Shown: positions 1,932-62,550 of the stretch, piece by piece | How the letters are laid out: every line of letters starts with the position of its first letter | How positions within the stretch are numbered: the first letter of the stretch is position 1 | Source: Bryobacteraceae bacterium | GTDB lineage: Bacteria; Acidobacteriota; Terriglobia; Bryobacterales; Bryobacteraceae | Reading direction: 5' to 3' | Length of the DNA: 64,000 nucleotides | NCBI GenBank assembly: GCA_030041495.1 | Contig: JASHNT010000104.1 | Span: 1 to 64,000 of the forward strand | The notes under the pieces: generated by a model | The model's database searches: none | Told to the model about the DNA's origin: nothing | The model's input: the letters and a program-made list of their open reading frames with translations, nothing else | Made by a program: the position numbers and the translations under genes

Positions 1932-3704
1932 ATGAGCACGATTTCCCGCGCAGGAGTCGTGGCGCTGGCCGCGGCGCTGTTTGGCTTTCCGGCGTTCGCG
2001 CAGATCGATTTATCCGGCGAATGGAATCCGCTGTTTCACGAGGATCAGCCGGAGCGCATCCCGGGGCCGGAGATCGGCGATTACCTGGGACTGCCGATCA
2101 GTGACGCGGCTCGCGAACGCGGCGACATCTGGGACGCGGACATTCTCACTTTGCCGGAGCACCAGTGCAAGCCGCACCCTTCCGACTACGGGGTGCGCGG
2201 CCCGGCGAACCTGCGCATCTGGAAAGAAGTGGACACGGCGACGCAGGAGATCATCGCGTGGCACACGCACATCTCCTGGCAGGCTCCGGAGCGGACCATT
2301 TATATGGATGGGCGACCGCATCCGCCGGAATATGCTCCGCATACCTGGCAAGGATTCTCCACAGGGCAGTGGGACGGCGACATCCTGACCATCACGACGA
2401 CGCATCTTAAGATCGGCTGGATCCGGCGCAACGGCATCCCACGCAGCGATCGTGCGACGGTGACCGAACATTGGATCCGCCACGGCGATCACCTGACCAT
2501 CGTGACGGAGGTGAACGACCCGGTGTATCTGACCGAGCCGTTCGTGAGGAGCACGGATTTCGTGATGGATCTGCATCAGCAGATTGCGCCGTATCCGTGC
2601 GAATCGGTGGAAGAGGTGACGCTAGAAAAAGGCGACGTGCCGAATCATCTCCCCGGGACGAATCCGTTCCTGAATGAATTCGCGCAGCGCCATCAGCTTC
2701 CGGAGGCGGCGGCTCGCGGCGGTGCGATCACCATGTATCCGGAGTACCGCTTGAACATGAAGCTGGCATCGAATCCGGTGACGGTGAATCGGCCGATGCC
2801 GGATCAGGATACGGGGACCATCCACATTCTTTCGTTGCCGGGCAACGCGAAGGGCAGCGTGTACATGCTGGTGGGAGCGGGCGCGAACATCACGGTGCAG
2901 ATCGGCAAGGATGGAGTGCTGCTGGTGGATGCGGGGCGCGCGTCGGAGACCGATCAGGTTCTGGCGGCGATCCGTTCGCTGACCGACAAACCGATCCACT
3001 ACATTCTCGACACGGCCGCGGATCCGGATCGGGTGGGAGGCAACGAAAAATTATCCAAGGCGGGCAGCACCATCACAGGCGGCAACGTGGCGGGGGCGAA
3101 TGCGGGATGGGCGGCGGATATCGTCGCGCATGAAAATGTCGGGAGCACGCTGAGCGCCGCGCCAAAAGGAAGCGGAGCGACGGTGATACCCGCGGACGGC
3201 TGGCCTCGCGACATGTACTTCGGCGATCAGAAGGACCTGTACTTCAATAATGAAGCAGTGCAGTTGTTTCATCAAAGAGCCGCGCACAGCGACGGCGACA
3301 GCCTGGTGTTCTTCCGGCGGTCCGACGTAATCAGCGCCGGCGGCATTTTTACTCCCGGCTACTACCCGGTGATCAACGTGAACCAGGGCGGAAGCATTAA
3401 CGGCGAGATCGCGGCGCTGAATCGCATTCTGGATCTGACCGTGCCGGCCGACAAAGAAGAAGGCGGGACGTACGTGATTCCAGGACACGGGCGCTTGTGC
3501 GATGAAGCCGACGTGGTGGAGTATCGCGACATGGTGACCATCATCCGCGACCGCATCCAGGACATGGTGAACAAGGGTATGACCCTGGAGCAGGTGAAGG
3601 CCGCCAAACCGACCTACGACTACGATCCGGAATACGGGACGACGTCGGGAGCCTGGACCACGGATATGTTTGTCGAGGCGGCGTACCGGAGTTTGAAGAA
3701 GTAG
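1932..3704 (+). CDS. Secreted chimera: conserved unknown domain fused to a degenerate metallo-beta-lactamase fold
   Basis: 590 residues with a signal peptide (residues 1-23, ending AFAQ). Residues about 25-215 match the secreted family found alone at 49378, 57086 and 57997 (shared 'W(D/E)GD.L...', 'R.GIP...', 'TE.W.R', 'V.DP.Y.TEP'). Residues about 295-590 look like an MBL-fold hydrolase: 'GKDGVLLVDAG', 'KPIHYILDT', 'GGNEKL', 'AHSDGDSLVFF', 'VIPGHG'. The zinc motif HxHxDH is replaced by TAADPDR (361-367), and the usual metal-bridging Asp of 'AGD.F' is Gly471. H452 and H519 remain. It is therefore doubtful that it binds two zincs; the fold may have another role. It starts 19 bases after the flavin reductase with GGAGC upstream, so it belongs to the same operon. 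Confidence 0.8.
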   Translation: MSTISRAGVVALAAALFGFPAFAQIDLSGEWNPLFHEDQPERIPGPEIGDYLGLPISDAARERGDIWDADILTLPEHQCKPHPSDYGVRGPANLRIWKEVDTATQEIIAWHTHISWQAPERTIYMDGRPHPPEYAPHTWQGFSTGQWDGDILTITTTHLKIGWIRRNGIPRSDRATVTEHWIRHGDHLTIVTEVNDPVYLTEPFVRSTDFVMDLHQQIAPYPCESVEEVTLEKGDVPNHLPGTNPFLNEFAQRHQLPEAAARGGAITMYPEYRLNMKLASNPVTVNRPMPDQDTGTIHILSLPGNAKGSVYMLVGAGANITVQIGKDGVLLVDAGRASETDQVLAAIRSLTDKPIHYILDTAADPDRVGGNEKLSKAGSTITGGNVAGANAGWAADIVAHENVGSTLSAAPKGSGATVIPADGWPRDMYFGDQKDLYFNNEAVQLFHQRAAHSDGDSLVFFRRSDVISAGGIFTPGYYPVINVNQGGSINGEIAALNRILDLTVPADKEEGGTYVIPGHGRLCDEADVVEYRDMVTIIRDRIQDMVNKGMTLEQVKAAKPTYDYDPEYGTTSGAWTTDMFVEAAYRSLKK

Positions 3705-6884: not shown

Positions 6885-6998
6885 GCTCCCTCAATTGCCA
6901 ATGTAGCCCAACTTCGCGTCATTCGCGGGTTTTTCACGCGTAGTTTTACAAAACTTAAGGTCGGATGCGCCTGAATCCGTTGTTCAATGTAGGGCGTG

Positions 6999-9979: not shown

Positions 9980-10151
9980 GTAACACCTCCTGAGGATAAG
10001 AGAACATCATACACTGCGATCCAGCGGCGTGGAGCCGCGTTCCGATTCGGATTGAGCGATATCGCGCACCAAACCGAGAGCCTCGCGGCAACTCGAAGAT
10101 TCTTCAGAGCGTGGCCAATCGGACTGGAAATTGCACCCCTTCACGGTGATT

Positions 10152-10700: not shown

Positions 10701-10782
10701 CGGGCTGCAAAAACCGGACCGGAAAAACTGCGACGCTGGCAGACGAAGTGCAGTCTCTGAAATGGGTGAGAAGAGAGGCTGT

Positions 10783-11208
10783 ATGAGAATGCCTAGAATC
10801 AGTGGTTTGGTTGTGTCCCTGCTGGCCCTTGTTGCGCCGACGCTGGCGGGCGCGGCCAATAGTTGGGACGATTTTACCTACATTACTTTCAGCGCGCCGG
10901 TGGAGATCCCCGGGCATGCGCTGCCGGCGGGGACGTATCGATTCCAGGTGGCCGACATATGGTCCAACCTGGACACCATCGAGATCTACAGCGCGGACGG
11001 GACGCTGGTGGCGAGAGTGGCTACCATGCCGATGTACCGCTTCGAACCGGTGCCGCAGCACACGGTGATCCAATTTGAGGAACGTCCGTCGAATTCACCG
11101 ACGGCGCTATCGGTCTGGTTTCCGCGCGGCCAGCGGTGGGGACACCGCTTCGTCTACGCGAAACGGCATAGAGCCGGGTGGTCGCAGACGCTGGGCACAC
11201 GGCCGTAA
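10783..11208 (+). CDS. Small secreted beta-rich protein of unknown function
   Basis: 141 residues. A signal peptide (about residues 1-26, ending 'LAGAAN') precedes a domain with 'FSAPVEIPGHALPAGTYRFQVADIWSN', a pattern I know from many uncharacterised acidobacterial secreted proteins. It looks like a small beta sandwich. ATG 10783 was chosen because GAGAGG lies about six bases upstream. It is 82 bases after the MauE-like gene and ends just before the convergent second PQQ gene. No function can be assigned. Confidence 0.65.
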   Translation: MRMPRISGLVVSLLALVAPTLAGAANSWDDFTYITFSAPVEIPGHALPAGTYRFQVADIWSNLDTIEIYSADGTLVARVATMPMYRFEPVPQHTVIQFEERPSNSPTALSVWFPRGQRWGHRFVYAKRHRAGWSQTLGTRP

Positions 11209-11214
11209 GGCGGC

Positions 11215-47730: not shown

Positions 47731-49377
47731 ATGAAAGCCGTACTTTGCGCCGCGATCCTAGCCTGCGGCGTTTTTGCGCAGGCTCCGGATGCGATCCTGG
47801 TCAATGGAAAAATCCTGACCGCCGACGCGCGGTTTTCGATCGATAGCGCCGTTGCGATTCGCGAAGGGAAAATTGCGGCGTTGGGTAACGATGCCGGGAT
47901 CCGCAGGCAGGCCGGCTCCGGCACGCGAGTGATCGATCTCGGCGGGCGTACGGTCATCCCGGGCCTGATCGATTCGCACATGCACGCGATCCGCGCAGCC
48001 TTGAGTTTTTCGACCGAGGTGAATTGGATCGGTACGCGGTCACTAAAGGAAGGACTGGGGCGGATCACGGAGGCTTCGCGCGCGATGAAGCCCGGCTCCT
48101 GGTTGATTGTGGCGGGAGGCTGGAACGTGGACCAGTTCCGGGAGAAGCGCCAGCCGACCCAAGCCGAGTTGATCGACGCGGCGCCCAACAATCCGGTGTA
48201 TGTGCAGCTCGCCTACGGTTGGGTGATGATGACTCCGTTGGCGTACCAGGCTCTGCACATCGCCAGCGAATCCGACCTTCCCAACAACGGCAAGTTTGAG
48301 AAAGACGCGAACGGCAAGCTGACCGGAGCTGTGACGGGCGGGCAATCCGCCATCAGCGGCTTGTTCGACAAACTGCCCAAGCCGAGCTTCGAGCAACAAG
48401 TCGACGGCACCAAGAAATTTTTCCGTGAGTTGAACCGCCTGGCGATGACCGGCGTGGTGGATCCTATGGGCAACAACATGTCGCCGCGAGAATATCAGGC
48501 GCTGTTCCAAGTTTGGCGCGAAAAACAATTGACCGTGCGCGTGGCTTACAGTCTCAGCCCGTGGGCCGGTCTTGCGGAGTTGCAGAGCGCCATCCAGATG
48601 TTGCCCATGGGATTCGGCGACGACATGCTGCACTTCAATGGGCTCGGCGAAAACGTCAGCCCCGGCATGTACAACAACGATCATCCGACCCAGGCGCAGA
48701 AACAGGAGTATTACGAGATCGCCAAGTGGGCGGCCGAGCGCGGCCTGTCCCTCACACAGCATTGGAGCAACGATTCCTCCGTGGGCGAGCTGCTTTCGGT
48801 ATGGGAGCGAGTCAACCAAGAGATTCCGATCGCTCCGCTGCGCTGGTCCATCGCGCACCTGAACGATGCTTCGATCGAGACTCTGCGCCGGATGAGGGCT
48901 CTGGGCGTGGGCTGGACGGTGCAGGATGCTCTGTATTTTTCGGGCGAGCAGTTCCGGCAACAGCATGGCGAGGCAGTCACGCGACGCTCGCCTCCGGTGG
49001 AGACTGCACGGGAGCTGGGGGTACCCGTCGGCGCGGGCACGGACGCGCATCGCGTGGCGTTGTACAATCCGTTCACATCGCTCCAATGTTTCCTGGACGG
49101 CAAGACGGTCGGCGGGGTCGCCCTGCGAGGGCCTGAGGAAACGCCCAGCCGGGAAAATGCTCTGCGCTACTACACCTCGGGCAGCGCTTGGTTTTCGCAC
49201 GACGAAGAGAAACGCGGCTCACTCGAGGTGGGTAAACTTGCGGATCTTGCGGTGCTGACCAAGGATTACATGACCGTGCCAGTGGAGCAGATCGGCGGGA
49301 TCGAATCGCTGCTGACGATGGTCGGCGGCAGGATCGTCTACGCGGCCGGTCCTTATGCGAAGCTGGATGGGAAATAG
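47731..49377 (+). CDS. Secreted amidohydrolase, family 3 (YtcJ-like)
   Basis: 548 residues. A short signal peptide ('MKAVLCAAILACGVFAQ') is followed by 'ILVNGKILTADARFSIDSAVAIREGKIAALG' and the metal-binding 'IPGLIDSHMHAIRAA', then 'RWSIAHLNDASIETLRRMRALGVG' and 'VGAGTDAHRVALYNPFTSLQ' with the conserved Asp. Family 3 amidohydrolases cleave exocyclic or formyl-type C-N bonds. The substrate is unknown. ATG 47731 was chosen because it directly precedes the signal peptide; upstream in-frame codons lie within the divergent gene. The stop codon abuts the next ATG. Confidence 0.88.
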   Translation: MKAVLCAAILACGVFAQAPDAILVNGKILTADARFSIDSAVAIREGKIAALGNDAGIRRQAGSGTRVIDLGGRTVIPGLIDSHMHAIRAALSFSTEVNWIGTRSLKEGLGRITEASRAMKPGSWLIVAGGWNVDQFREKRQPTQAELIDAAPNNPVYVQLAYGWVMMTPLAYQALHIASESDLPNNGKFEKDANGKLTGAVTGGQSAISGLFDKLPKPSFEQQVDGTKKFFRELNRLAMTGVVDPMGNNMSPREYQALFQVWREKQLTVRVAYSLSPWAGLAELQSAIQMLPMGFGDDMLHFNGLGENVSPGMYNNDHPTQAQKQEYYEIAKWAAERGLSLTQHWSNDSSVGELLSVWERVNQEIPIAPLRWSIAHLNDASIETLRRMRALGVGWTVQDALYFSGEQFRQQHGEAVTRRSPPVETARELGVPVGAGTDAHRVALYNPFTSLQCFLDGKTVGGVALRGPEETPSRENALRYYTSGSAWFSHDEEKRGSLEVGKLADLAVLTKDYMTVPVEQIGGIESLLTMVGGRIVYAAGPYAKLDGK

Positions 49378-50136
49378 ATGAGCCATCGACTCGCCATCAT
49401 GATTCTGTTGGCAACCGCAAGCGCATACGGCCAGTGGCGCGAGTATCCAACTCCGGGAGTACCGCGGCTCGCCAACGGCAAGCCCAACCTGGCTGCTCCG
49501 GCTCCGAGGACTGCGGACGGGAAGCCTGATTTTTCGGGGCTCTGGCAGACTCGTCCGGGCTACACTTCGGACATCGCCAAGGATCTTAAGCCGGGCGAAG
49601 TTTCCTTCCAGCCCTGGGCCGCCGAATTGTACAAGCATCGCGTGGATACAGAGAGCAAGGACGATCCGCAGGCGCGCTGTGTTCTCTCTGGAGTTCCGCG
49701 CGAACACGTGGTGCCATATCCGTTCAAGATCCTCAACAGCTCAGGCGAGATCGTAATTCTGTACGAAGCTCTGCACAGCTACCGGCAGATTTTCATGGAC
49801 GGCCGTTCGCTGCCCAAAAATCCCAATCCCGCATGGATGGGTTATTCGGTCGGGCATTGGGAGGGCGACACGCTGGTAGTGGAGTCGAATGGATTCGAGG
49901 AGAACAACTGGCTGGACAACAACGGTCACCCTGGAACCGAAGCTCTGCGTCTGACCGAACGTTTCCGCCGCCCCGATTACGGGCGCATCAATCTGGAAAT
50001 GACCATCGACGATCCCAAAGCCTACACCAAGCCGTGGACCGTGAACCTGCTGTTCACCGCCGCGCCGGACACCGAGTTGATCGAATACGTCTGCGACGAA
50101 AATGAAAAAGACGTGGTGCATCTGGTGGGCAAGTAG
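49378..50136 (+). CDS. Secreted protein of the WEGDTLVV family (unknown function)
   Basis: 252 residues with a signal peptide (1-18, ending SAYGQ). 'DGKPDFSGLWQT' and 'DDPQARCVLSGVPRE' open the domain; then 'SYRQIFMDGRSLP', 'VGHWEGDTLVVESNGF', 'WLDNNGHPGTEALRLTERF', 'MTIDDPKAYTKPWTV' and 'VCDENEKD' follow. The same blocks occur at 57086, 57997 and in the first part of the protein at 1932. Its ATG starts immediately after the amidohydrolase stop, and its stop abuts the MetE-like start, so all three are one operon. I know no named function for this family; a beta-barrel ligand binder is only a guess. Confidence 0.75.
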   Translation: MSHRLAIMILLATASAYGQWREYPTPGVPRLANGKPNLAAPAPRTADGKPDFSGLWQTRPGYTSDIAKDLKPGEVSFQPWAAELYKHRVDTESKDDPQARCVLSGVPREHVVPYPFKILNSSGEIVILYEALHSYRQIFMDGRSLPKNPNPAWMGYSVGHWEGDTLVVESNGFEENNWLDNNGHPGTEALRLTERFRRPDYGRINLEMTIDDPKAYTKPWTVNLLFTAAPDTELIEYVCDENEKDVVHLVGK

Positions 50137-51261
50137 ATGCTCTCGCCCTATCGCGCCGATCACGTCGGCAGTTTGCTACGCCCTCCGGAATTGATCGAGG
50201 CCCGCAAAAATCCCGCGCTGGCGCCCGAAAAATTGAAGGAGATTGAGGACCGCCACATTCTGCGCGTGCTCGAGCGGCAGAAGGATCTCGGATTCCGCAT
50301 CTTCACCGACGGCGAATTCCGCCGCATCGGATTCATGAGCGACTTCAACGATTCGGTGGAGGGTCTGGACAGCGCCGAAGCCATCACGCGCGATTGGAAA
50401 ACGGAAGCGAGCGGCAAGACCGCCGTGAAGCGTCTGGAAAACCGGCTGCCCGGGGTGGTGGTCGAGAAGATCCGGCAGAAGCGGAGGCTCGCTGCGCATG
50501 AGATGGCGTTCCTCAAAGAGCACAGCCCCGGCGATATCAAGATCACTCTGCCCACGCCGAATCAATTCCCGGCGATTGCGTACAAAAAGGGTTTGAGCGA
50601 CGCGGCTTATTCCACATATTCAGAATTCTTGTGGGACCTGGTACCGATTTTCAAAGCCGAGATGGAAGCGCTGGCTCGCGAAAGCGCGCGTTACATCCAG
50701 ATCGACGCGCCGCGCTACAGCTACTATCTCGATCCCAAGTGGCGGCGTTACGTGGAGGAGCAGATGGGCGTCGATCCGGAGCAAGCTCTGGACGAGGCGA
50801 TTCGCGTGGATAATGCCTGCATCGAAGGTGCGCGAGCGGGCGGCGCAGACGTGCTTGTGGCGATCCACTTGTGCCGCGGCAACAATCGCAGCCAATGGTA
50901 TGCCGAGGGCGGCTACGATCCAATTGCCGAGAAGGTTTTCAACCGGCTCAACGTGGATGCGTTCCTACTGGAGTATGAATCCGAGCGCGCAGGCACGTTT
51001 GAGCCGTTGCGCTTCGTGCCTTCGGGAAAGACCGTGGTGCTCGGTTTGGTGAGCACAAAGCTGCCGACGATGGAGACTGAGGGTCAACTGCTGAAGCGGA
51101 TCGACGAGGCGAGCAAGTACGTGCCGCTCGACCGGCTCGCGCTGAGCCCGCAGTGCGGCTTCGCCAGCGTGCTCGAAGGGAATCTGCTCACAGAGGAAGA
51201 CCAGTGGCGCAAGTTGGAGCTGGTGGTCGCGACGGCGCGGAAGGTTTGGGGTGACGCCTAA
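50137..51261 (+). CDS. MetE-like cobalamin-independent methyltransferase (C-terminal domain type)
   Basis: 374 residues: 'YRADHVGSLLRPPELIEAR', 'DLGFRIFTDGEFRR', 'GDIKITLPTPNQF', 'YIQIDAPRYSYYLDPKWR', 'VAIHLCRGN' (zinc His and Cys), 'LEYESERAGTFEPLRF' and 'LSPQCGF' (zinc Cys). This is the catalytic half of MetE with its zinc ligands intact, but without the MetE N-terminal half. Such short forms often transfer methyl groups from substrates other than folate. It lies in an operon with the amidohydrolase and the WEGDTLVV protein, which suggests use on a demethylation pathway rather than methionine synthesis. Confidence 0.85.
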   Translation: MLSPYRADHVGSLLRPPELIEARKNPALAPEKLKEIEDRHILRVLERQKDLGFRIFTDGEFRRIGFMSDFNDSVEGLDSAEAITRDWKTEASGKTAVKRLENRLPGVVVEKIRQKRRLAAHEMAFLKEHSPGDIKITLPTPNQFPAIAYKKGLSDAAYSTYSEFLWDLVPIFKAEMEALARESARYIQIDAPRYSYYLDPKWRRYVEEQMGVDPEQALDEAIRVDNACIEGARAGGADVLVAIHLCRGNNRSQWYAEGGYDPIAEKVFNRLNVDAFLLEYESERAGTFEPLRFVPSGKTVVLGLVSTKLPTMETEGQLLKRIDEASKYVPLDRLALSPQCGFASVLEGNLLTEEDQWRKLELVVATARKVWGDA

Positions 51262-51269
51262 GCGAACGA

Positions 51270-51791
51270 CTATTGATTCTTCTTGAGGATGTACTGGCCC
51301 AGGGTGAGTTCCTTCGCGCCGAATTCCTTTTGGAGCGGATCGGGTATGTTACACTTGGTCTCCGTCATCAAGAGACAACTTTCGAGCCCTTCCCGCAGAT
51401 TTTCGAGGCTCGTGGCGTCGAACCGCTCGACGATGTCCTGAGCGATCGAGGCGAGAAAGTTAGTCGCAACGTCGTCGGCCGTCCGCCCTAGGAAGAGTCC
51501 GCCGCCGAGAAAGCTTTTAAAGGTCGCACCATTGAAATGAGCCACATACATGCACGCGAATGGATCACTTTGTTTTCTCTGCATGCAGGACACGAGGACG
51601 ACCACCTTGCTCGGATCGGTGCTCGCCACGGCCTGGAATGGCTTTGATTCGTTCAGCTTCTTGACGAGGGACTGAGCGACTGGCGATGCTGCATCGAGTC
51701 CGGTTACGAACACCGCGAACTTTTCCGATTTTTCTTGAGCATTCGCCGCCGGAATCGCGACGCAGAGAAGAGCGAGGATTGCCGTTCGCAT
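51270..51791 (-). CDS. Secreted protein of unknown function
   Basis: 173 residues with a signal peptide (1-18, ending ANAQ). The mature part reads 'KFAVFVTGLDAASPVAQSLVKKLNESKPFQAV', 'VVVLVSCMQRK', 'FACMYVAHFNGATFKSFLGGGLFLG' and 'CLLMTETKCNIPDPLQ'. Several cysteines may form disulfides. A GATACT box lies eight bases before the ATG. No family is recognised. It converges on the MetE-like gene with eight bases between. Confidence 0.6.
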   Translation of the reverse strand: MRTAILALLCVAIPAANAQEKSEKFAVFVTGLDAASPVAQSLVKKLNESKPFQAVASTDPSKVVVLVSCMQRKQSDPFACMYVAHFNGATFKSFLGGGLFLGRTADDVATNFLASIAQDIVERFDATSLENLREGLESCLLMTETKCNIPDPLQKEFGAKELTLGQYILKKNQ

Positions 51792-51896
51792 TCCTGCATA
51801 GTATCAGGAAAGTGTTTCGGTTTTGAAGTTGCACGGCGGCTCGCCGAGAGCGTTGGATCGGAGCTGTTGGGGGAATCGCTGCTACAATCCAAGAAC

Positions 51897-52382
51897 GTGG
51901 GCCAAGATATCGCGCAAATCTGCCTTAATGGGCACGTGGTTAACGGCGCTACGCGCACCTATCCGGAACTCTCCAAGGCCTTCTGCGATCGGTGCGGCCA
52001 GAAGGCAATCACGAGCTGCGTGGGCTGCGAGCACCCGATACGGGGTGCGGATGCCGGAATTTATCGGCGTGGCCGATACTCGCAGGGTATGTCGGAAGCA
52101 CCGTACTTTTGTGAAAAATGCGGGAGTCCGTTTCCTTGGACGGAATCCAAACTTGAGGCCGCTCGCGCGCTTGCGGAGGAGCTCCAACTCGATGTTCCGG
52201 AGAAAATATTGCTGGACGAAAACATCGAAGACCTCATTAGGGATAGCCCAAAAGCCCCTGCAGCGGCGGCGCGTTTTCGGCGCGTTGTGACGCAGGTGAA
52301 GCCCGAGCTGTTGGATGGCTTTCGGCAAGTGTTTTGGGGCATAGTGAGCGAGCGGGTTAGCAAGTTGATCTTCGGAGGTTGA
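51897..52382 (+). CDS. DUF2321-type zinc-knuckle protein
   Basis: 161 residues from GTG 51897. 'ICLNGHVVNG', 'FCDRCGQKAITSCVGCEHPIRG' and 'PYFCEKCGSPFPWTE' place cysteines in zinc-ribbon pairs, as in the DUF2321 family. The C-terminal half is helical ('EDLIRDSPKAPAAAARFRRVVTQVKPEL'). TACAAT (51883-51888) ends eight bases before the GTG and there is no Shine-Dalgarno sequence, so translation is probably leaderless. It is next to a DUF5677 gene on the other strand. Confidence 0.75.
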   Translation: MGQDIAQICLNGHVVNGATRTYPELSKAFCDRCGQKAITSCVGCEHPIRGADAGIYRRGRYSQGMSEAPYFCEKCGSPFPWTESKLEAARALAEELQLDVPEKILLDENIEDLIRDSPKAPAAAARFRRVVTQVKPELLDGFRQVFWGIVSERVSKLIFGG

Positions 52383-52433
52383 GGTCGGTGCACAGGCGAC
52401 CGGGTCTGCCGTTAACGAATGCCTCTCCGGTAG

Positions 52434-53243
52434 TCACGCTCTGGGCGGTTGAAGGAGGCGCACCTGATCCGGGACGCCGAAGTCGGTGTCACTGTAGAGC
52501 CATACGGCAAAGAATCCCTTCAATGCTTCTTTTGCTAAATCCGAGGCTGTTCGGTTTCCGTGAAAATACAATTGATGGGCCAGGATGGTTTCAACGGCAA
52601 GGGCGTGGGTGTGCTTCGCTATGTTATACATCAAAGAGCCTGACCCGCTCAACTCAGATCGGACGCCGTAATGTGTAGGGTGTATATGCTTCGACGAGAT
52701 CGCAAATGCTTCCAAGAACATATAACTCATTCCCGCCTTTTCGGATAACGTCTGGGCGGAATGGGGTGTCCAGGTCGTTTGTTTCCGATAGCCACACTGA
52801 CTGCACTTATCCTGTCGAAAACGGCCTTTCGCAGCGTTCGCCCTTTCCCTTAAAACGTCCCGCGCATCGGGGAGCATGTAGGCGATATCCTTAGCTTCGA
52901 TACCGCTGATCACTGCTTCCCAATCTAAAGCGTCAAAGTCCAGGAAGTTGAGCGCTTCCGCAGGGTTCAGTGCGATGTATTTCAAGGTTACGGCGCGTTC
53001 AAACGCGCTTCGCAGGAGTCGGAAGGCAGCCCATACCCTGTCATATGAGCAGAGTGTGAGTATCGAGTCAAAGTCGCCGGCGAGCGCGATCATCAGCGAG
53101 CCGATGACCTGTCCAGCGTCGTCCTCAGGTTTCAGTTCTGTTGTCAGGACGAGCGTCGGACTCGCCTCAAACGCCTTCTTGAACTCTATCCCAAAGTTCG
53201 GGTGTGCGGAAAGAAACTGGCTCCATGTTACGTTGTCCGCCAT
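52434..53243 (-). CDS. DUF5677-like protein
   Basis: 269 residues, mostly helical: 'SLMIALAGDFDSILTLCSYDRVWAAFRLLRSAFERAVTLKYI', 'SYMFLEAFAISSKHIHPTHYG' and 'ALAVETILAHQLYFHG'. The 'RLLRSAFERAVTLKYIALNP' stretch and the conserved 'H.HPT' are typical of DUF5677 proteins, whose function is unknown. A 'CSQCGYRK' knuckle is in the middle. Converges on the DUF2321 gene. Confidence 0.72.
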   Translation of the reverse strand: MADNVTWSQFLSAHPNFGIEFKKAFEASPTLVLTTELKPEDDAGQVIGSLMIALAGDFDSILTLCSYDRVWAAFRLLRSAFERAVTLKYIALNPAEALNFLDFDALDWEAVISGIEAKDIAYMLPDARDVLRERANAAKGRFRQDKCSQCGYRKQTTWTPHSAQTLSEKAGMSYMFLEAFAISSKHIHPTHYGVRSELSGSGSLMYNIAKHTHALAVETILAHQLYFHGNRTASDLAKEALKGFFAVWLYSDTDFGVPDQVRLLQPPRA

Positions 53244-53274
53244 GCAGCTCTGCCAGAGCCTCTAATGTTAACGT

Positions 53275-53460
53275 TTGTTGCGCCAACAGAAAAGCCCCTG
53301 GGCTGCTATGCTCGAAGACAGCCGTCTTAGCGAAGGAGATCAGCGGCGGAAGCTGGAGTTGGCGCTCGCTTACCGCCTACTAGGTTTGGGCCTGAGGCTT
53401 GGTCTGCTATTCGGAGATGCCGGGCGATCCATCAGCGTCTCTCGATCAGCGACAACCTAG
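53275..53460 (+). CDS. Doubtful short reading frame, possible gene remnant
   Basis: 61 codons with 'RLSEGDQRRKLELALAYRLLGLG'. This piece resembles the first helix of class II aldolase/adducin proteins, but the rest does not continue in any frame. It may be a remnant or noise. No ribosome site. Confidence 0.15.
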   Translation: MLRQQKSPWAAMLEDSRLSEGDQRRKLELALAYRLLGLGLRLGLLFGDAGRSISVSRSATT

Positions 53461-53473
53461 GAGGGAGGCGCTC

Positions 53474-53683
53474 ATGGCTGAGTACGGGTTCACTGTCCTT
53501 TACGAGCAACTCGAAGAGGGCGGATACCAGGTCGTCGTGCCGGCCTTGTCCGGCATTGTTACTTACGGCCGCACGCTCCCCGAGGCCAGAGAGGTGGCCC
53601 GCGACGCCATCATCTGCCACGTGCGCGGATTGCTCAAGGACAATGGAGCGATTCCCGGCGATTCCTTGACGGCGTCCTGTTAG
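53474..53683 (+). CDS. HicB-family antitoxin-like protein, orphan
   Basis: 69 residues: 'YGFTVLYEQLEEGGYQVVVPALSGIVTYGRTLPEAREVARDAI' is the HicB partial RNase-H-like fold that neutralises HicA in toxin-antitoxin pairs. No HicA gene is seen within 300 bases on either side, and the protein lacks the C-terminal DNA-binding domain of longer HicB. It has a GGGAGG site before ATG 53474. It may be an orphan antitoxin or have another role. Confidence 0.75.
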   Translation: MAEYGFTVLYEQLEEGGYQVVVPALSGIVTYGRTLPEAREVARDAIICHVRGLLKDNGAIPGDSLTASC

Positions 53684-53696
53684 GCGCGGTATCCGC

Positions 53697-53725
53697 TTTA
53701 CGCTCTCCTCCCGGCTCGATATAAT
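53697..53725 (+). promoter_or_regulatory. Promoter of the aromatic-degradation operon
   Basis: TTTACG (53697-53702) and TATAAT (53720-53725) are 17 bases apart; the TATAAT is perfect. ATG 53739 lies 13 bases on, so the leader would be about seven bases and there is no Shine-Dalgarno sequence. Confidence 0.55.
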
Positions 53726-53738
53726 CCGCTTGCGCCTT

Positions 53739-54773
53739 ATGAAGTCGCCTTTCTTGAAGCTCCTATTTTGCGCTGCCGCCGTGCTCGCTTCCCTGCCCTG
53801 TTCTGCCGAGTCCATCGTCATCAACTACCCAGCGAAGGCTCCCGCCAACTGGCCGATTTTTCTCGCCAAAGAAGGCGGCTACTACCAGAAGTACGGTTTC
53901 GACGCCAAGCTCACATTCGCGGTGCACCCGGCGGGCATCGCGATGGTGGTGAGCGGCGAGGCGGTGATGTCTAACTATCCGATGGACCAGGCAATGCAGG
54001 CCGCTATGCGCGACGGCTCGCTGGTGATCATGGGAAGCCCGCTGAATCGCGCTCTGTTTGCGATGATGACGCGCAAGGACATCAACAGCGTGCGAGAGCT
54101 GAAAGGCAAGCGCATCGGCGTGAGCCAGATTGGCGACCCTCCGTACAGCTTCGCCGAAGCGATCCTGGGCAAAGCCGGCATCGGGCCGCGCGACGTGACG
54201 TGGGTTCCGCTGGGTACGGACGGAAACGGACGCGTGGCTGCGTTGGTAGGAGGCCGCATCGACGCGACCATGATTCCTCCGCCCGCATACTTCAAGCTGG
54301 AGCCGCAAGGGTTCAAGGAAATTGCGAACCTGGCGGACAATGCGGATCTCTACGCGCCGCTCGCCTACGTCTTCAAGAAGAGTGAGATCGCCAAGAATCC
54401 GCAGTTGCCGGAGCGAATGATCAAGGCGCAGGCCGAGGCGATCAAGCGCTATTACGACGACAAGGCTCTGGCGATAAAAGCCTACGGCATGTACGATCCC
54501 CAAGGGGCTGCCGATATCGAGCGCATCTACGATCACGACAAGAAGGCCAACACGTATGAGCGAGTGCCGTACGTGCTGGCGCCCGCGGTCGATTACATCA
54601 TCCATCACCAGGCCGATGCGAACATCGCCGCGCAGATGCAGGCTTACGACTTCCACAAGGTGATCGATAACAGCGTCATCGACCGCCTGGTGAAGGAACA
54701 TTTCTTCGAGCAACTCTTCGGCACTGGCATCAAGGCGGAAGAGGACGCGAAATCCAAACTCGCTTTCAAGTAG
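53739..54773 (+). CDS. ABC transporter substrate-binding protein (NMT1/SsuA-like)
   Basis: 344 residues with a signal peptide (about 1-23, ending PCSA). 'PAKAPANWPIFLAKEGGYYQKYGFDAKLTF', 'AGIAMVVSGEAVMSNYPMDQAMQAAMRDGSLVIMG', 'VRELKGKRIGVSQIGD' and 'AALVGGRIDATMIPPP' match the NMT1/THI5-like periplasmic binding fold that captures sulfonates, aromatic acids or pyrimidines. No permease or ATPase gene is adjacent, so the transporter must be elsewhere or the protein works another way. First gene of the operon; its stop TAG overlaps a TAGACT box (54771-54776) eight bases before the next ATG. Confidence 0.87.
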   Translation: MKSPFLKLLFCAAAVLASLPCSAESIVINYPAKAPANWPIFLAKEGGYYQKYGFDAKLTFAVHPAGIAMVVSGEAVMSNYPMDQAMQAAMRDGSLVIMGSPLNRALFAMMTRKDINSVRELKGKRIGVSQIGDPPYSFAEAILGKAGIGPRDVTWVPLGTDGNGRVAALVGGRIDATMIPPPAYFKLEPQGFKEIANLADNADLYAPLAYVFKKSEIAKNPQLPERMIKAQAEAIKRYYDDKALAIKAYGMYDPQGAADIERIYDHDKKANTYERVPYVLAPAVDYIIHHQADANIAAQMQAYDFHKVIDNSVIDRLVKEHFFEQLFGTGIKAEEDAKSKLAFK

Positions 54774-54784
54774 ACTGGTCCGTT

Positions 54785-55780
54785 ATGGCGGAAATCGTTC
54801 TGGGCATCGGATCTTCGCATGGGCCATTGCTTTCCACTCCTCCCGAAAAATGGGATTTGCGGGCGCAGGCCGATCGCGAAAACAAGAAGCACTGGTATCG
54901 CGGCAAGACTTACGACTACGAGTCGCTACTCAAGGAGCGCGCGCCGGGATTTGCGAAAGAGGTCGCCGTCGAGGTGCGGCGCGACCGTTTCGCGCAATGC
55001 CACAAGGCGATGGAGGCGCTGACGCGGAAGTTCAAGGAGACAGCTCCGGACGCGGTGGTGATCGTCGGCAACGACCAGCGCGAATTTTTCGACGAGGGTC
55101 TGACGCCGTCCATTACCGTCTACCGCGGCGGGGAGATCCGCAACCTTCAGCACACGCCCGCAAACAGCCCCCCCGGAATCAACATCGCGGAGCCGGGGAA
55201 TGCGCCGCAGGAAGGCGCGTCGTATCCGGGATCGACGGCGCTGGCGGATCACATTCTGGATTCGCTGGCCGCGGAGAATTTCGATCTGGCGCAGTCGGAT
55301 CAGACGCCGACGGCTGCTCCGCGCGGGGGCATTCCTCACGCGTACGGGTTCCTGTATCACTCGATCCTCGGCGACACTCCTCCGCCCAGCGTGCCCATCA
55401 TCCTGAACGTCCACTTTCCCCACAATGTTCCGAAGAACCGGCGCTGCCTGGATCTGGGCGCGGCGCTGACGCGCGCGATCCGCAGCTTCAACGGGTTCAA
55501 ACGCGTCGCGATCATGGCGTCAGGCGGGCTCACGCATTTTGTGGTGGATGAAGAGCTCGATCGCAAAATCCTCGCCGCGATGCAAACCTGCGACGAGCCT
55601 GCGTTAGAGGCCATCCCGGAGAGCATGTTCAAAGTCGGCACGGCGGAGATCAAGAATTGGTATCCGGTGATTGCGGCGGCGAACAAAGCCGGCTTGCGGT
55701 ATCACCTGGTGGATTACGTGCCGTGCTATCGCTCCGAAGCCGGCACCGGCAACGCCATGGCGTTCGTGTATTGGGATTGA
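54785..55780 (+). CDS. Extradiol ring-cleavage dioxygenase, LigB family
   Basis: 331 residues. 'LGIGSSHGPLL' carries the first metal His (H12), 'PDAVVIVGNDQREFFDEG' the conserved strand, 'GIPHAYGFLYH' and 'SGGLTHFVVDEELDR' the further active-site residues of class III (LigB) extradiol dioxygenases. These use Fe(II) and oxygen to open catechol- or gallate-type rings. Unlike protocatechuate 4,5-dioxygenase no separate LigA subunit gene is adjacent. It lies between the substrate-binding protein and the Rieske oxygenase, which supports a ring-degradation route. Confidence 0.86.
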   Translation: MAEIVLGIGSSHGPLLSTPPEKWDLRAQADRENKKHWYRGKTYDYESLLKERAPGFAKEVAVEVRRDRFAQCHKAMEALTRKFKETAPDAVVIVGNDQREFFDEGLTPSITVYRGGEIRNLQHTPANSPPGINIAEPGNAPQEGASYPGSTALADHILDSLAAENFDLAQSDQTPTAAPRGGIPHAYGFLYHSILGDTPPPSVPIILNVHFPHNVPKNRRCLDLGAALTRAIRSFNGFKRVAIMASGGLTHFVVDEELDRKILAAMQTCDEPALEAIPESMFKVGTAEIKNWYPVIAAANKAGLRYHLVDYVPCYRSEAGTGNAMAFVYWD

Positions 55781-55787
55781 TCGCTGG

Positions 55788-57089
55788 ATGCTGGACACTG
55801 CGAAGAACCGGCTGCTTACAGAAGTCGGCGCGGGTTCGCCGATGGGCGAACTGTTGCGCCGCTACTGGCTGCCCATCGCGGCGGTAAGCGAGTTCGAATC
55901 GATCTCCGTTAAGACGGTGCGCCTGCTGGGCGAAGATCTGACGCTCTATAAAGATTTGAGCGGGACGTTCGGCTTGGTGGACCGGCACTGCCCGCACCGC
56001 CGCGCGGACACGTCTTATGGCTTTGTCGAGGAGTGCGGCCTGCGTTGCAACTATCACGGCTGGCTCTTCGATGAGAATGGCCGCTGCACGGAGCAGCCTT
56101 ACGAAGACGTCGCTGCGCCGCAAGCCCGGTTCAAGGATAAAGTCCGGATCAAGGCGTATCCGGTTGAGGCTCACGCTGGATTGCTGTGGGCGTATCTGGG
56201 TCCCGAGCCGCGCCCGCTGGTCCCTAACTGGGAACCTTTCACCTGGAAGAACGGCTTCGTCCAGATCGTGTTCGCGGAGGTGCCGTGCAACTGGCTTCAG
56301 TGCCAGGAAAATTCCATCGACCCGGTGCACTTTGAGTGGATGCACATGAACTGGAGCGTGCGCCTGGAGGCTGCTGAACGAGGAGGGGACAAGCTGGGGC
56401 CGTATTCGCCGCGGCATTTGAAGCTCGCGTTCGAGGAGTTCGATTACGGCTTCGTCTACCGGCGCATTCGTGAAGGGATGAACGAATGCGATCCGATGTG
56501 GACCGTGGGCCGTGTGTGCTTGTGGCCGAATGCGCTGTTCACGGGCGATCATTTCGAGTGGCGTGTTCCCATCGACGATGAAAACACTCTGAGCGTGACG
56601 TGGGCCTTCAGCCGTGTACCCAAGGAGAGCGAGCCGTACGTGCAAGAGCGTATTCCCGCATGGCACGGTCCGGTGAAGGAAGCGGAGAGCGGACGCTGGA
56701 TTTCGAGCCACATCATGAATCAGGATTTTGTCGCGTGGGTGGGGCAAGGCGTAATCGCGGACCGGACACAGGAACATCTCGGCACAAGCGATGCGGGAAT
56801 CTTGATGTTACGAAAACGGTTCCAAAATGATTTGGAGGCCATTGGGCGGGGCGAGGATCCGAAAGCCGTCATCCGCGATGCGCAAGTCAATCAATGCGTG
56901 GGGCTGCCGATTGCGGAGCGCAAGCTCCTGATGGAAGGGCTACCTCGCGAGCAGCTTTTGAAGCACCCGATTCACGGCCGTCAGATCGTCGAAGGCTATC
57001 CGTTCCAGCTTGGCCAACCGAAAGAGATTCGCGAGGCGTATTTGGCCGCGATGGGGATGAGCTCTGCAGTGAAAGAGGTTTTGAAGTGA
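55788..57089 (+). CDS. Rieske ring-hydroxylating oxygenase, phthalate dioxygenase-like
   Basis: 433 residues from ATG 55788. The Rieske cluster is C68-P-H70 and C87-N-Y-H90 ('DRHCPHRRADTSYGFVEECG', 'LRCNYHGW'). The mononuclear iron site has 'NSIDPVHFEWMH' (H181, H186). 'LLTEVGAGSPMGELLRRYWLP' is the start typical of phthalate 4,5-dioxygenase-type oxygenases. No ferredoxin reductase gene is next to it. The stop overlaps the next start (GTGA). With the LigB enzyme it would hydroxylate or demethylate an aromatic ring and then open it. Confidence 0.92.
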   Translation: MLDTAKNRLLTEVGAGSPMGELLRRYWLPIAAVSEFESISVKTVRLLGEDLTLYKDLSGTFGLVDRHCPHRRADTSYGFVEECGLRCNYHGWLFDENGRCTEQPYEDVAAPQARFKDKVRIKAYPVEAHAGLLWAYLGPEPRPLVPNWEPFTWKNGFVQIVFAEVPCNWLQCQENSIDPVHFEWMHMNWSVRLEAAERGGDKLGPYSPRHLKLAFEEFDYGFVYRRIREGMNECDPMWTVGRVCLWPNALFTGDHFEWRVPIDDENTLSVTWAFSRVPKESEPYVQERIPAWHGPVKEAESGRWISSHIMNQDFVAWVGQGVIADRTQEHLGTSDAGILMLRKRFQNDLEAIGRGEDPKAVIRDAQVNQCVGLPIAERKLLMEGLPREQLLKHPIHGRQIVEGYPFQLGQPKEIREAYLAAMGMSSAVKEVLK

Positions 57090-58000
57090 GACTGGCGGCG
57101 CTCCTGGTCGGGCTGAGTTTTGCCTTCGGGCAGGATCCCGCGCCACCCAAGCCCGCGCTCGCCAAGGATCCGGGTCCGTTCCTCACGCCCGAACAGTCTG
57201 CGGAAACCCCGAGCGCCGAAACATCGAGCAAAGCCGGGCGCGGCCGCGGAGCCAAACAGGTCGCGGGCCCAACACCGCATCTCGCCGACGGCCGTCCTGA
57301 CTTCGGAGGAAACGGAGCGTGGTATCCGGGATTCAACGGCAATGTGGCGGAGACGAAGTGGAAAGGCGTCAAGAGCGCGGACAAGCACGTTGACGTTCCG
57401 TTCCGTGACTGGAGCCTGGCCACTTTCAACCATCGCGTGGAGACGCTTTCGAAGGACGATCCCGAAGCCCGCTGCCTGCCGGTAGGTGTGCCGCGCTTCA
57501 TGTTCGATCCGTATCCCTTTCAGATGGTCCAGGCTCGCGATCAAGTGATTTTCCTCTTCGAGGGCGACAATTATCTGTGGCGCATCGTACGCATCGCGCA
57601 ACCGGGAGTTTCGCTGGCGGAAGCGCATCCGAAAAATCTCAAGCCGACGTGGCTGGGCGATGCCGTTGGCCGTTACGAAGGCGACACGTTGGTGGTGGAC
57701 GTGAAAGGTTTCAACGGCCTGGCGTGGATGGATCAGGCCGGCCACGCCACCTCGGACAAACTGCACCTGACCGAGCGTTACACGCGCACGGATACGCTGA
57801 CGCTGAAGTACGAAGCGACCATCGACGATCCCGGCGCATACTCGGTTCCGTGGACCGTGTACAACACGGTGCGATGGCGGCCTGGAATGGAGCTCGGCGA
57901 ATCGATTTGCCAGGAGAATGAGAAGAGCTCAATGCACATGGTCGGGACGCCGGATTCGAAACCACCGGATCCAAAGAAGCCGGATTCAAAGAAACAATGA
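57086..58000 (+). CDS. Secreted protein of the WEGDTLVV family (unknown function)
   Basis: 304 residues from GTG 57086. Signal peptide ('VRLAALLVGLSFAFGQ'), a low-complexity stretch (about 17-65), then the family blocks: 'DGRPDFGGNGAW', 'KDDPEARCLPVGVPR', 'PYPFQMVQ', 'LWRIVRIAQPG', 'VGRYEGDTLVVDVKGF', 'WMDQAGHATSDKLHLTERY', 'ATIDDPGAYSVPWTVYN'. The C-terminus is rich in Pro, Asp and Lys. Its start overlaps the Rieske stop (GTGA) and its stop overlaps the next family member (ATGA), so the two are made with the oxygenase. Confidence 0.75.
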   Translation: MRLAALLVGLSFAFGQDPAPPKPALAKDPGPFLTPEQSAETPSAETSSKAGRGRGAKQVAGPTPHLADGRPDFGGNGAWYPGFNGNVAETKWKGVKSADKHVDVPFRDWSLATFNHRVETLSKDDPEARCLPVGVPRFMFDPYPFQMVQARDQVIFLFEGDNYLWRIVRIAQPGVSLAEAHPKNLKPTWLGDAVGRYEGDTLVVDVKGFNGLAWMDQAGHATSDKLHLTERYTRTDTLTLKYEATIDDPGAYSVPWTVYNTVRWRPGMELGESICQENEKSSMHMVGTPDSKPPDPKKPDSKKQ

Positions 58001-58593
58001 AGTATTTTCTGCTTTTGGCCGCCGTTGCCACGGCGCACGCGCAAGGCCATCCGGATTTGGGCAGCGGAGGCGTGTGGCTGCCGCGGCATGTGGCCGACGT
58101 TGCTCCTCCCGCAAGCGCGGCGCCGACAAAGCAAGACGATCCGGCCGCGCGCTGCCTTCCGCCCGGTGTTCCGCGCATCATGCTGGAAGCTCGCCCGTTT
58201 GAAATCGTGCAGACGCCGAACCGGATTCTGATCCTGTTCGAGGGCGGTGCGCACGTGTTTCGTCAAATTTGGATGGACGGGCGCGGCCATCCAAAGGACC
58301 CGAACCCGGACTGGCTCGGCGACTCCATCGGCCATTGGGAAGGCGGCACGCTGGTTGTGGACACGGTTGGCTTCAATGACAAGTCGTGGCTCGACGACGG
58401 GGGGCATCGCCACACCGAGCGGCTGCACGTGACAGAAAAGTTCACGCGTGTTGCGGCGCAAGCCATGCGGTATGAAGCCACCATCGACGATCCAGGCGCT
58501 TACCCTCACGCCTGGACTGTCAACAGCTCTTTTTCCTTCCGCGCCGGAGGGAGGTTGGCTGAGGACATCTGCCTCGACAAGATCGCGCGGTAG
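57997..58593 (+). CDS. Secreted protein of the WEGDTLVV family, short form
   Basis: 198 residues: signal peptide ('MKYFLLLAAVATAHAQ'), 'KQDDPAARCLPPGVPRIMLEARPFEIVQ', 'HVFRQIWMDGRGHPKDPNPDWLGDSIGHWEGGTLVVDTVGF', 'WLDDGGHRHTERLHVTEKF' and 'ATIDDPGAYPHAWTVN'. The N-terminal 'DG+PDFSG' block of its relatives is missing, so it is the shortest version. It is the last gene of the operon starting at 53739, and the second family copy in tandem. Confidence 0.74.
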   Translation: MKYFLLLAAVATAHAQGHPDLGSGGVWLPRHVADVAPPASAAPTKQDDPAARCLPPGVPRIMLEARPFEIVQTPNRILILFEGGAHVFRQIWMDGRGHPKDPNPDWLGDSIGHWEGGTLVVDTVGFNDKSWLDDGGHRHTERLHVTEKFTRVAAQAMRYEATIDDPGAYPHAWTVNSSFSFRAGGRLAEDICLDKIAR

Positions 58594-59871: not shown

Positions 59872-61059
59872 TCAGCCGTGAACCGCGACTTTCTTACCTG
59901 CGAGCACCGTAGCGATCGGAAAAAGCCTCTGCATTCCGGTGCGCTTGTTCTCGTAGTTGTCCACGAATTCGAAAGTCCCCTCGCGCAGCTCCAGCAGGGC
60001 GATGTCCGCAGGCGCACCGATCTTCAGCGTGCCCTTGCCGCGAAACACGCCGAACACCCGCGACGGGTTAACAGTCGCGCACGCGATCACGCGGTCGAGC
60101 GGCAAGCCGAGCATGAGGAACTTGGACATGACATTGGGGAAGTCGATGATCTGCGTGGTGCGACCTTCCGGTGTCCAATCGGTGGAAAAAGTATCGGGAA
60201 GAAAGCCGGTTTTGAGGACAGCCTCCGCGATGTCCCATCGCAAATGGCCCGTTCGTCCGTTACCCAGGTCGAAGATCACGCCGCGCCGGCGGGCCGCGAG
60301 GACTTCGGGAAGGATGTGCTCCGCATCGTCGATGATGCTGTTGGGCGGAGGCGCGAACATATGGGTCACGATATCGCCGGATTTCAGGAGCGGAAACAGC
60401 TTCGCCAGAGGCGACACCGTCTGGCCCATGTGGATCATCACCGGCAGCCGGAAGGCCGACGCCACTTCTTGCGCGCGCCGCAGCACTTCGAAATCGTTTG
60501 CTCCCGCAACGTCGCGCGACAGCCTAGCCTTGACGCCGGCAATCGTCTCGCGATTGCGGGCGATGGCTGCCTTCGCGGCGCTTACGTCGGCGCGACTCAA
60601 ATCCATGGTGTCGCCTTCGGCGATAATGCCTTTGCGGCCGATGTTGATCAGCACCCGGCACGGCTGCGGCGCGGCTTGTGCGGCACGCACCGCCTGGTCG
60701 ATACCGTCCGCGCCCTGTGTTCCCGCGTCGATCAATCCGGTGACTCCGTCGGCCAGACACAGCTTCGGGCCGTCGGGCGAGCGAGTCGCGTGAGTGTGGA
60801 TGTCGATCAAACCCGGCGCGACCAACTTGCCCTGCGCATCGATTTTCTCCGCACCACCGGCTTCGATGTTTGCTCCGATCTCCGCGATACGCCCGTTCGC
60901 GATCGCCACGTCCCGCAGCGCGTCCAGCTTGCGCGAAGGATCGACGACGCGCCCGCCCTTGACCACCAGGTCATACTTCGCCGCCGCCGAAGCCCGGCGA
61001 GCGGGAACCCACGCCGCCGCGATTGAACTGCTCGCCAAAAACTGCCGCCGGTTCATCAT
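59872..61059 (-). CDS. Tat-exported amidohydrolase/deacetylase-like protein
   Basis: 395 residues. 'NRRQFLASSSIAAAW' at the N-terminus is a twin-arginine signal. 'DLVVKGGRVVDPSRKLDALRDVAIANGRIAEIG' and the HxH metal motif 'APGLIDIHTHATRS' identify the amidohydrolase superfamily, dihydroorotase-like deacetylase group; 'VMIHMGQTVSP' and 'GDIVTHMF' carry further His ligands and 'FDLGNGR' and 'FSTDWTPEG' follow. ATG 61059 was chosen because GAGGAG lies seven bases upstream. It starts 12 bases after the LVIVD gene's stop. Confidence 0.87.
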   Translation of the reverse strand: MMNRRQFLASSSIAAAWVPARRASAAAKYDLVVKGGRVVDPSRKLDALRDVAIANGRIAEIGANIEAGGAEKIDAQGKLVAPGLIDIHTHATRSPDGPKLCLADGVTGLIDAGTQGADGIDQAVRAAQAAPQPCRVLINIGRKGIIAEGDTMDLSRADVSAAKAAIARNRETIAGVKARLSRDVAGANDFEVLRRAQEVASAFRLPVMIHMGQTVSPLAKLFPLLKSGDIVTHMFAPPPNSIIDDAEHILPEVLAARRRGVIFDLGNGRTGHLRWDIAEAVLKTGFLPDTFSTDWTPEGRTTQIIDFPNVMSKFLMLGLPLDRVIACATVNPSRVFGVFRGKGTLKIGAPADIALLELREGTFEFVDNYENKRTGMQRLFPIATVLAGKKVAVHG

Positions 61060-61070
61060 GTTTTCGCTCC

Positions 61071-62501: not shown

Positions 62502-62550
62502 GATCGCCTCGCAGCACAAACAAGTATCACGGCCGCGCTAGTGGAGTCAA

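Follow-up and report, generated by a model that had tools for sequence, protein, structure and literature searches.

Multicopy proteins with a predicted calycin-like barrel and their linkage to DUF6152 and DUF6644 genes in a Bryobacteraceae bacterium and its relatives

Among described proteins, the fatty acid-binding (FABP) and cellular retinol- and retinoic acid-binding (CRBP and CRABP) proteins of the calycin superfamily come closest in predicted fold to the proteins considered here; in FABPs, the helices come after the first strand and before the others. The present work deals with a protein family, designated W, which is encoded four times in a 64,000-nucleotide stretch of DNA from a Bryobacteraceae bacterium (phylum Acidobacteriota; GenBank assembly GCA_030041495.1, contig JASHNT010000104.1, positions 1 to 64,000 of the forward strand), hereafter the window. 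The likeness to the FABP-type proteins resides in the barrel type of the best 50 of 1229 PDB matches of a W model, in which the helices likewise occupy this position. W differs by its export-type N-terminus, two conserved Cys residues, a length of about 250 amino acids (aa) and its occurrence as a bacterial multi-copy family; three single-domain W proteins gave no Pfam match, to a lipocalin or FABP profile or any other, at an expectation value (E) up to 1, and the template modelling (TM) scores by query were 0.29–0.37. Partner genes belong to two described families of the Pfam database, DUF6152 (PF19649) and DUF6644 (PF20349), which they match above the curated cut-offs; W matches neither and is a third family. 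W was found to be linked to DUF6152 by presence, position and gene fusion, and more loosely to DUF6644 and a cytochrome c'-like protein.

The W family and its predicted fold

The four W proteins which the initial annotation had placed at 49378, 57086, 57997 and 1932 were all present there. The ordered blocks reported to be shared by them reflect true homology, as a search of the genome from which the window comes (the own genome) with the 49378 protein recovered the other three, at 57242–57946 (E 1.6e-51), 58129–58575 (E 8.1e-43) and 2289–2615 (E 1.5e-10). With an iterated profile (E 3e-39), the W domain of the 1932 protein was located at residues 31–235, counted in the stop-to-stop frame whose end is at 3704. 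Two details had to be corrected: the gene at 57086 starts with GTG, and the 1932 protein is a fusion of a W domain with a metallo-beta-lactamase-fold domain, an arrangement found also in one other own-genome open reading frame (ORF). Judged by eye, the N-termini of the W proteins are of the export type, as had been proposed.

The own genome (6.12 Mb) gave 121 matches to the 49378 protein at E up to 10 and 107 at E up to 1e-5. After iteration, 100 W ORFs were counted in the fetched neighbourhoods, at least one of them (L033:10149-10499) a fragment; the piece C40:59146, which has a stop codon inside it, was left out, and two ORFs contained two W domains apiece. Since the genome has about 100 W ORFs, the earlier statement that the family occurs four times was an effect of sampling by the window. 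About 100 copies of one unnamed, predictedly exported family represent a large investment for a genome of 6.1 Mb. Across 13 genomes of the same genus (own genome included) the number of W matches ranged from 5 to 138; five genomes of another genus of the same order had 11–13, and three other genomes had none. The nearest named relative (76% identity) derives from a Bryobacteraceae metagenome bin. At least 587 W relatives were found, of which 80 loci were kept, including bins of Gammaproteobacteria, Gemmatimonadetes and Vicinamibacteria. Two loci (L162 and L166) carry W genes in a bin labelled Bordetella parapertussis, a label that is probably wrong. A W match was present in nine of 72,556 plasmids, from Sphingomonadales and one Sinorhizobium.

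The initial view of W as one family was borne out, and no Pfam or NCBIfam family covering the W domain was found at E up to 1. Neither did three single-domain W proteins match PHROG at E up to 0.1, nor the W profile any PDB sequence at E up to 10. Three frames of 621–635 aa (L065:9018-10883, L067:8258-10126 and L161:5436-7343) hold about 340–350 residues ahead of a C-terminal W domain; a scan of the first two gave no Pfam match.

An alignment of 72 sequences, composed of the window protein and 71 rows picked by eye from 115 listed, showed C101, G155 and D212 to be invariant. Positions kept in at least 90% of the sequences include C239, E194, R136, W161, G163, D164 and T165, and no His was among the invariant or near-invariant positions. 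Alignment starts were chosen by a rule favouring a hydrophobic N-terminus, and for this reason neither this alignment nor that of DUF6152 (see below) can test for signal peptides.

The AlphaFold2 model obtained from the W alignment had a predicted local distance difference test score (pLDDT) of 93.6 and a predicted TM score of 0.88. It contains, in order, an N-terminal helix, taken from its position as the export signal, a strand at 54–58, helices within 79–111 and eight strands, and corresponds to a predicted antiparallel barrel whose first strand is followed by helices. A Foldseek search of the PDB at E up to 0.001 returned three matches, all of the retinol-binding type (8gdm, 1crb and 5ha1), the best being CRBP1 (E 7e-4, probability 1.00). 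The best 50 of the 1229 matches at E up to 10 were barrels of the CRBP, CRABP and FABP type and their relatives, with probabilities of 0.98–1.00. UnaG and NanoLuc, which we take to be derivatives of the FABP-type barrel, were among the fold matches. A calycin-like (FABP/CRBP-type) barrel is the best structural reading of the W model; membership in the calycin family is not claimed, because no sequence profile matched. The comparison with lipocalins that had been suggested earlier thus ended in a predicted lipocalin-like barrel, which makes the accompanying idea of a substrate binder plausible; the role in degradation routes given to this binder was unsupported (see below).

Linkage of W genes to DUF6152 and DUF6644

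At E up to 1e-4, the own genome contained 50 matches to DUF6152 and 23 to DUF6644. Among 21 relatives, W, DUF6152 and DUF6644 were all present in the same 18 genomes and all missing from the same three, and the match counts were correlated (Spearman coefficient 0.97 for W and DUF6152, 0.94 for W and DUF6644); within the 13 genomes of the same genus the W–DUF6152 correlation was 0.93. In a sample of 149 genomes drawn evenly across the phylum (E cut-offs 1e-8 for W, 1e-6 for DUF6152 and 1e-5 for DUF6644), each of the three families was found in the same 15 genomes and in no others. The 15 genomes represent 10 of 101 genera, six of them belonging to one genus. The W and DUF6152 match counts in many-candidate genomes of this sample are lower bounds, and the probabilities of co-occurrence treat as independent genomes that are related.

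The genes are also physically close. Within the fetched regions of the own genome, 37 of 39 DUF6152 ORFs lay within 1.5 kb of a W gene, in 36 of the 37 cases one on the same strand. By chance, 2.6 of the approximately 50 DUF6152 genes would be expected at this distance, giving a P of about 1e-36, which is rough, the figure of about 50 coming from the Pfam search and that of 39 from our own profile. In 27 of the 37 pairs the gap was 0–1 nt, as measured between stop-to-stop frames, which overstate contact. DUF6152 and W were fused in five ORFs, two in the own genome (L042 and L052) and three in named loci (L129, L185 and L189). Six of the 72,556 plasmids matched a DUF6152 query, and all six were among the nine with W; the query, one divergent protein, failed to pick up NZ_CP103870.1, a plasmid with an annotated DUF6152. 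At the three plasmid loci with usable annotation, W stands beside genes matching DUF6152, and in two of them DUF6644 is present too. Pairing with DUF6152 was considered as a marker of W clades and rejected as weak: on a tree of 130 domains it required 35 changes, and 300 shuffles averaged 43.5 and went as low as 35.

The layout of the linked genes was examined in 12 loci picked for DUF6644, mostly near W or DUF6152, which show arrangement and not frequency. In 11 of them a DUF6644 pair, DUF6152 and W are found within a few kb, in varying orientation; in the twelfth (L216) the contig ends soon past the DUF6644 pair. Such compact cassettes occur in several families of the phylum and on a Novosphingobium plasmid (L111). 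DUF6152 and DUF6644 of L211 are known from the genome searches, having been missed by the gene caller, and in L218 about 2.7 kb separate DUF6152 from W. When W types, alpha and beta, were read off the tree order, both were present in seven of the 11 cassettes (L211, L213, L214, L215, L217, L218 and L220); L212 and L221 have the alpha type only, L219 has one W in neither group, and the several W genes of L222 are less clearly placed. By inspection, DUF6644 lies within 5 kb of DUF6152 in nine of the 15 positive genomes of the phylum sample.

A small protein with a CXXCH motif is encoded in seven cassettes (L211, L213, L214, L217, L218, L220 and L221) and in L111. The motif was found near the C-terminus in all 14 homologues of the small cassette protein (weakest E 9e-4), and a scan of three such proteins with PF01322 placed one above the cut-off and one below it and left one unmatched. 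DUF6644 is a membrane protein with one His present in 98% of 54 sequences. For DUF6152, an OB-like model was obtained (pLDDT 89.1) with matches to SSB and PriB (best E 1.6e-3); a search of PDB sequences with its profile gave chance-level matches only. In 77 of 80 DUF6152 ORFs with an HH motif (85 examined, as stop-to-stop frames) the His-His is preceded by Ala, as at a signal-peptidase site, and H26, H27 and H54 are invariant in 31 aligned rows (of 36, five being dropped since the picked start gave W or an incomplete sequence). DUF6152 genes such as L133:7546-7953 combine the A-HH at the predicted cleavage site with an NPH motif, and these elements on the predicted OB-like fold form a possible, putative metal site.

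Several observations weigh against a general linkage and against the reading of the system proposed in the next section. Half of the own-genome W genes (50/100) have no DUF6152 within 1.5 kb; in named loci only 46 of 124 W genes have one at that distance, many of these loci being cut by contig ends, and by our own profile all four W genes of the window are without one. The control regions away from W hold one DUF6152 and two DUF6644 genes, and only seven of 14 called DUF6644 genes in W neighbourhoods are within two genes of W. By inspection, six genomes of genus g70 lack DUF6644 near DUF6152. The fold matches are moderate for W (best E and TM scores as given above), and the DUF6152 model had no fold match below E 1e-3. 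Outside the phylum, a sample of 185 genomes of the class of genome G182 contained W in two and DUF6152 in four, with both only in G182; the other three DUF6152 matches of this class were weak (34–42 bits), and the W matches of G199 were moderate (E 3e-21). DUF6644 was not found in three of the 12 W-bearing genomes reached via named loci, whose completeness is not given. With so few joint occurrences in the class of G182 and DUF6644 missing from three of 12 genomes, the strict three-way pattern is established for this phylum only, and outside the phylum the link is only partly confirmed. The finding that the profile detects no DUF6152 in the window also accounts for the recurrent partners having been overlooked in the initial annotation.

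Possible roles of W and the neighbours in the window

We give about even credence to the reading in which W proteins are diversified secreted ligand-binding barrels that serve a periplasmic redox or metal module with DUF6152, DUF6644 and the cytochrome. The exported W barrel would probably be held by a disulfide between its two conserved Cys residues, and each barrel would bind a small, probably hydrophobic ligand, acting in concert with uncharacterised envelope proteins that form a conserved set. DUF6152, as an exported OB-like protein with a predicted mature N-terminus of His-His and a third conserved His, could bind metal, and the tandem DUF6644 membrane pair, with its one near-invariant His, often together with the small c'-type cytochrome, might move electrons. 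The ancestral cassette would then have been a periplasmic redox or metal-handling module; in some genomes W, frequently with DUF6152 alongside, has expanded to about 100 copies. A set of about 100 copies that differ in sequence but share a constant scaffold is as would be expected of a ligand repertoire, and an enzyme family would look similar.

An enzyme built on the calycin-like barrel, in which the acidic residues E194, D212 and D164 would act in hydrolysis, dehydration or isomerisation of diverse metabolites with DUF6152 and the cytochrome as redox partners, is a tentative and rather unlikely alternative. The invariance of D212 and the conservation of E194 and D164, the fusions to the metallo-beta-lactamase-fold domain in the window and elsewhere in the own genome, and the enzymes adjoining some W members agree with it. 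On the other hand, G155, G163, D164, T165, D212, P213, C101 and C239 are located at turns or strand ends in the model and may be structural, E194 sitting within a strand, and sequence searches recover no enzyme family for the W domain. A cassette for heme or copper, with DUF6152 binding copper through His-His, the DUF6644 pair binding heme through its His and W as an accessory or carrier in cofactor delivery and not as a binder of organic substrates, would fit the A-HH at the predicted cleavage site and the invariant H54 of DUF6152, the conserved His of DUF6644 and the cytochrome c'-like gene with its CXXCH; we consider it improbable, since some 100 divergent W copies per genome are hard to square with cofactor delivery and W has no His at its invariant or near-invariant positions. 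Quite improbable in our estimate is a periplasmic oxidation system, new for bacteria, in which a copper site of DUF6152, formed at the N-terminal His-His of its OB fold, would be recharged by the cytochrome and the DUF6644 membrane pair; DUF6152 would act on organic molecules that the W barrels present, and up to about 100 such barrels might each be specific for another compound.

If W is a ligand repertoire, as in the ligand-binding reading preferred here, it would offer a route for sensing, scavenging or oxidising diverse small molecules. Through the joint occurrence of W, the two DUF families and a c-type cytochrome, several unknown families gain one shared, testable role.

The window features are collected in Table 1. 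The catabolic neighbours named in the initial annotation were confirmed by Pfam (Amidohydro_3, Meth_synt_2, Rieske, LigB, cupin, Flavin_Reduct and Glyoxalase/VOC), and so was the coupling or abutment of the genes: 47731–49377 abuts 49378 and 50136 abuts 50137, 57089/57086 and 58000/57997 are 4-nt overlaps, and the 1932 gene begins 20 nt past its neighbour.

Table 1. Coordinates of W-family features and adjoining genes in the window.
Feature	Coordinates	Strand	Basis
W-family protein, 252 aa, export-type N-terminus, predicted calycin-like barrel	49378..50136	+	homology search, model
W-family protein, 304 aa, GTG start	57086..58000	+	homology search
W-family protein, 198 aa, 4-nt overlap with the 57086 gene	57997..58593	+	homology search
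W domain of the 1932–3704 fusion protein	1998..2612	+	profile domain match
Metallo-beta-lactamase-fold domain of the 1932–3704 protein	2874..3599	+	PF00753 above cut-off
Neighbour, Amidohydro_3, conserved partnership not found	47731..49377	+	Pfam, neighbourhood searches
Neighbour, MetE-like (Meth_synt_2), conserved partnership not found	50137..51261	+	Pfam, neighbourhood searches
Neighbour, LigB-type dioxygenase, conserved partnership not found	54785..55780	+	Pfam, neighbourhood searches
Neighbour, Rieske oxygenase, conserved partnership not found	55788..57089	+	Pfam, neighbourhood searches

The conclusion drawn from these neighbours, that W is a recurring periplasmic part of unrelated degradation routes, was not supported beyond the window, as homologues of the window partners are rare beside other W copies. 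For these comparisons genes were called with our own codon-usage caller, which missed some small genes; own-genome neighbourhoods had been selected for the presence of W, and control regions were positioned manually, clear of matches to the 49378 protein. Own-genome W neighbourhoods totalling 1.09 Mb (window included) contained, outside the window, four homologues of the nine window neighbours, two of which, an amidohydrolase and a cupin, lay no farther than 3 kb from W; control regions totalling 0.38 Mb contained no homologues of the nine proteins. Named loci gave four homologues, three of them at 3 kb or less from W. A MetE-like homologue of the 50137 protein (L149:3559-4677) is 8 bp from W in an acidobacterial bin, and a LigB-type homologue of the 54785 protein (L180:4436-5446) is 306 bp from W in a gammaproteobacterial bin. 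In the window, an amidohydrolase and an LVIVD-repeat protein adjoin each other near W (59872-62519); L121 has a homologue of this amidohydrolase (10274-11464), 1169 bp from W, and, by eye, one of the LVIVD-repeat protein (about 8778-10131), beside the W gene. Adjacency to MetE, LigB or amidohydrolase genes as a rule was rejected, the named loci showing a single case of each at up to 3 kb.

Close relatives of the 57086 protein (six loci, 64–78% identity) and of the 49378 protein (three loci, 60–75%) were compared, and none of the nine loci keeps a window partner within 3 kb of W. The only homologue labelled in them is an amidohydrolase about 5 kb away (L209). In L202 the contig is cut off at the flank expected to carry the Rieske gene, and DUF6152 directly follows the W pair. 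The 102 immediate neighbours of W (W, DUF6152 and DUF6644 excluded) were mixed, with Lactamase_B the commonest (six); Amidohydro_3 occurred twice, once in the window itself, and neither Rieske nor LigB was among the best 25 of 119 Pfam families. No Pfam family dominated 102 control genes. The catabolic-partner reading was rejected on these grounds, and that of W as a periplasmic part of assorted degradation routes, very improbable in our judgement, holds in the window itself and is favoured by the single recurrences at L149, L180 and L121, but as physical linkage it is largely refuted by the two homologues within 3 kb in 1.09 Mb, the other neighbours of close relatives, the two Amidohydro_3 genes in 102 and the lack of an oxygenase family in the best 25.

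Metallo-beta-lactamase genes made up six of the 102 immediate neighbours versus at most one of 102 controls (Fisher P of 0.12 with one in controls and 0.03 with none); the control list runs down to one-member families and contains no metallo-beta-lactamase. PQQ dehydrogenases were rejected as a general partner, PQQ_2 being found in three of 102 immediate neighbours versus two of 102 controls; a cluster of these dehydrogenases has 19 members, seven within two genes of W and three in controls. Another recurrent neighbour of W, without a Pfam match (L038:13442-14353), belongs to a cluster of seven with one member in controls. Elsewhere in the window, the sequence at 6996-8096 resembles what is presumably an acidobacterial soil protein family of the TIGR03435 type.

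Comparison with known systems

The small cassette protein resembles cytochrome c' (PF01322) in the position of its CXXCH, near the C-terminus in all 14 homologues; of the other two cassette proteins scanned, one remained under the cut-off and one was unmatched. The C-terminal domain of the 1932 protein had as its best NCBIfam match the quinoprotein relay zinc metallohydrolases (SoxH_rel_PQQ_2, TIGR04559); with 69.9 bits, far under the cut-off of 280, it is not a member. DUF6152 may be likened to CopC/CopD-type or histidine-brace copper proteins, which we take, by analogy only, to share with it a small exported beta structure with a predicted N-terminal His; DUF6152 genes are also found near multi-pass membrane proteins, presumably as in CopC/CopD-type systems, again as an analogy. 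It differs from these proteins in its OB-like model, and no sequence relationship with them was found.

In the literature covered, most subscription papers lying outside its scope, no mention was found of DUF6152, DUF6644, PF19649 or PF20349, nor anything relevant on calycin- or lipocalin-like DUF families in Acidobacteria or on expansions in Bryobacterales. Paralogous genes of soil acidobacteria are treated in general terms in the passages of PMC5900883 that bear on the subject, which do not mention the W family. A described system combining the components of the linked W–DUF6152–DUF6644 set was not found there either; W alone would represent a new family whose fold is of a known type.

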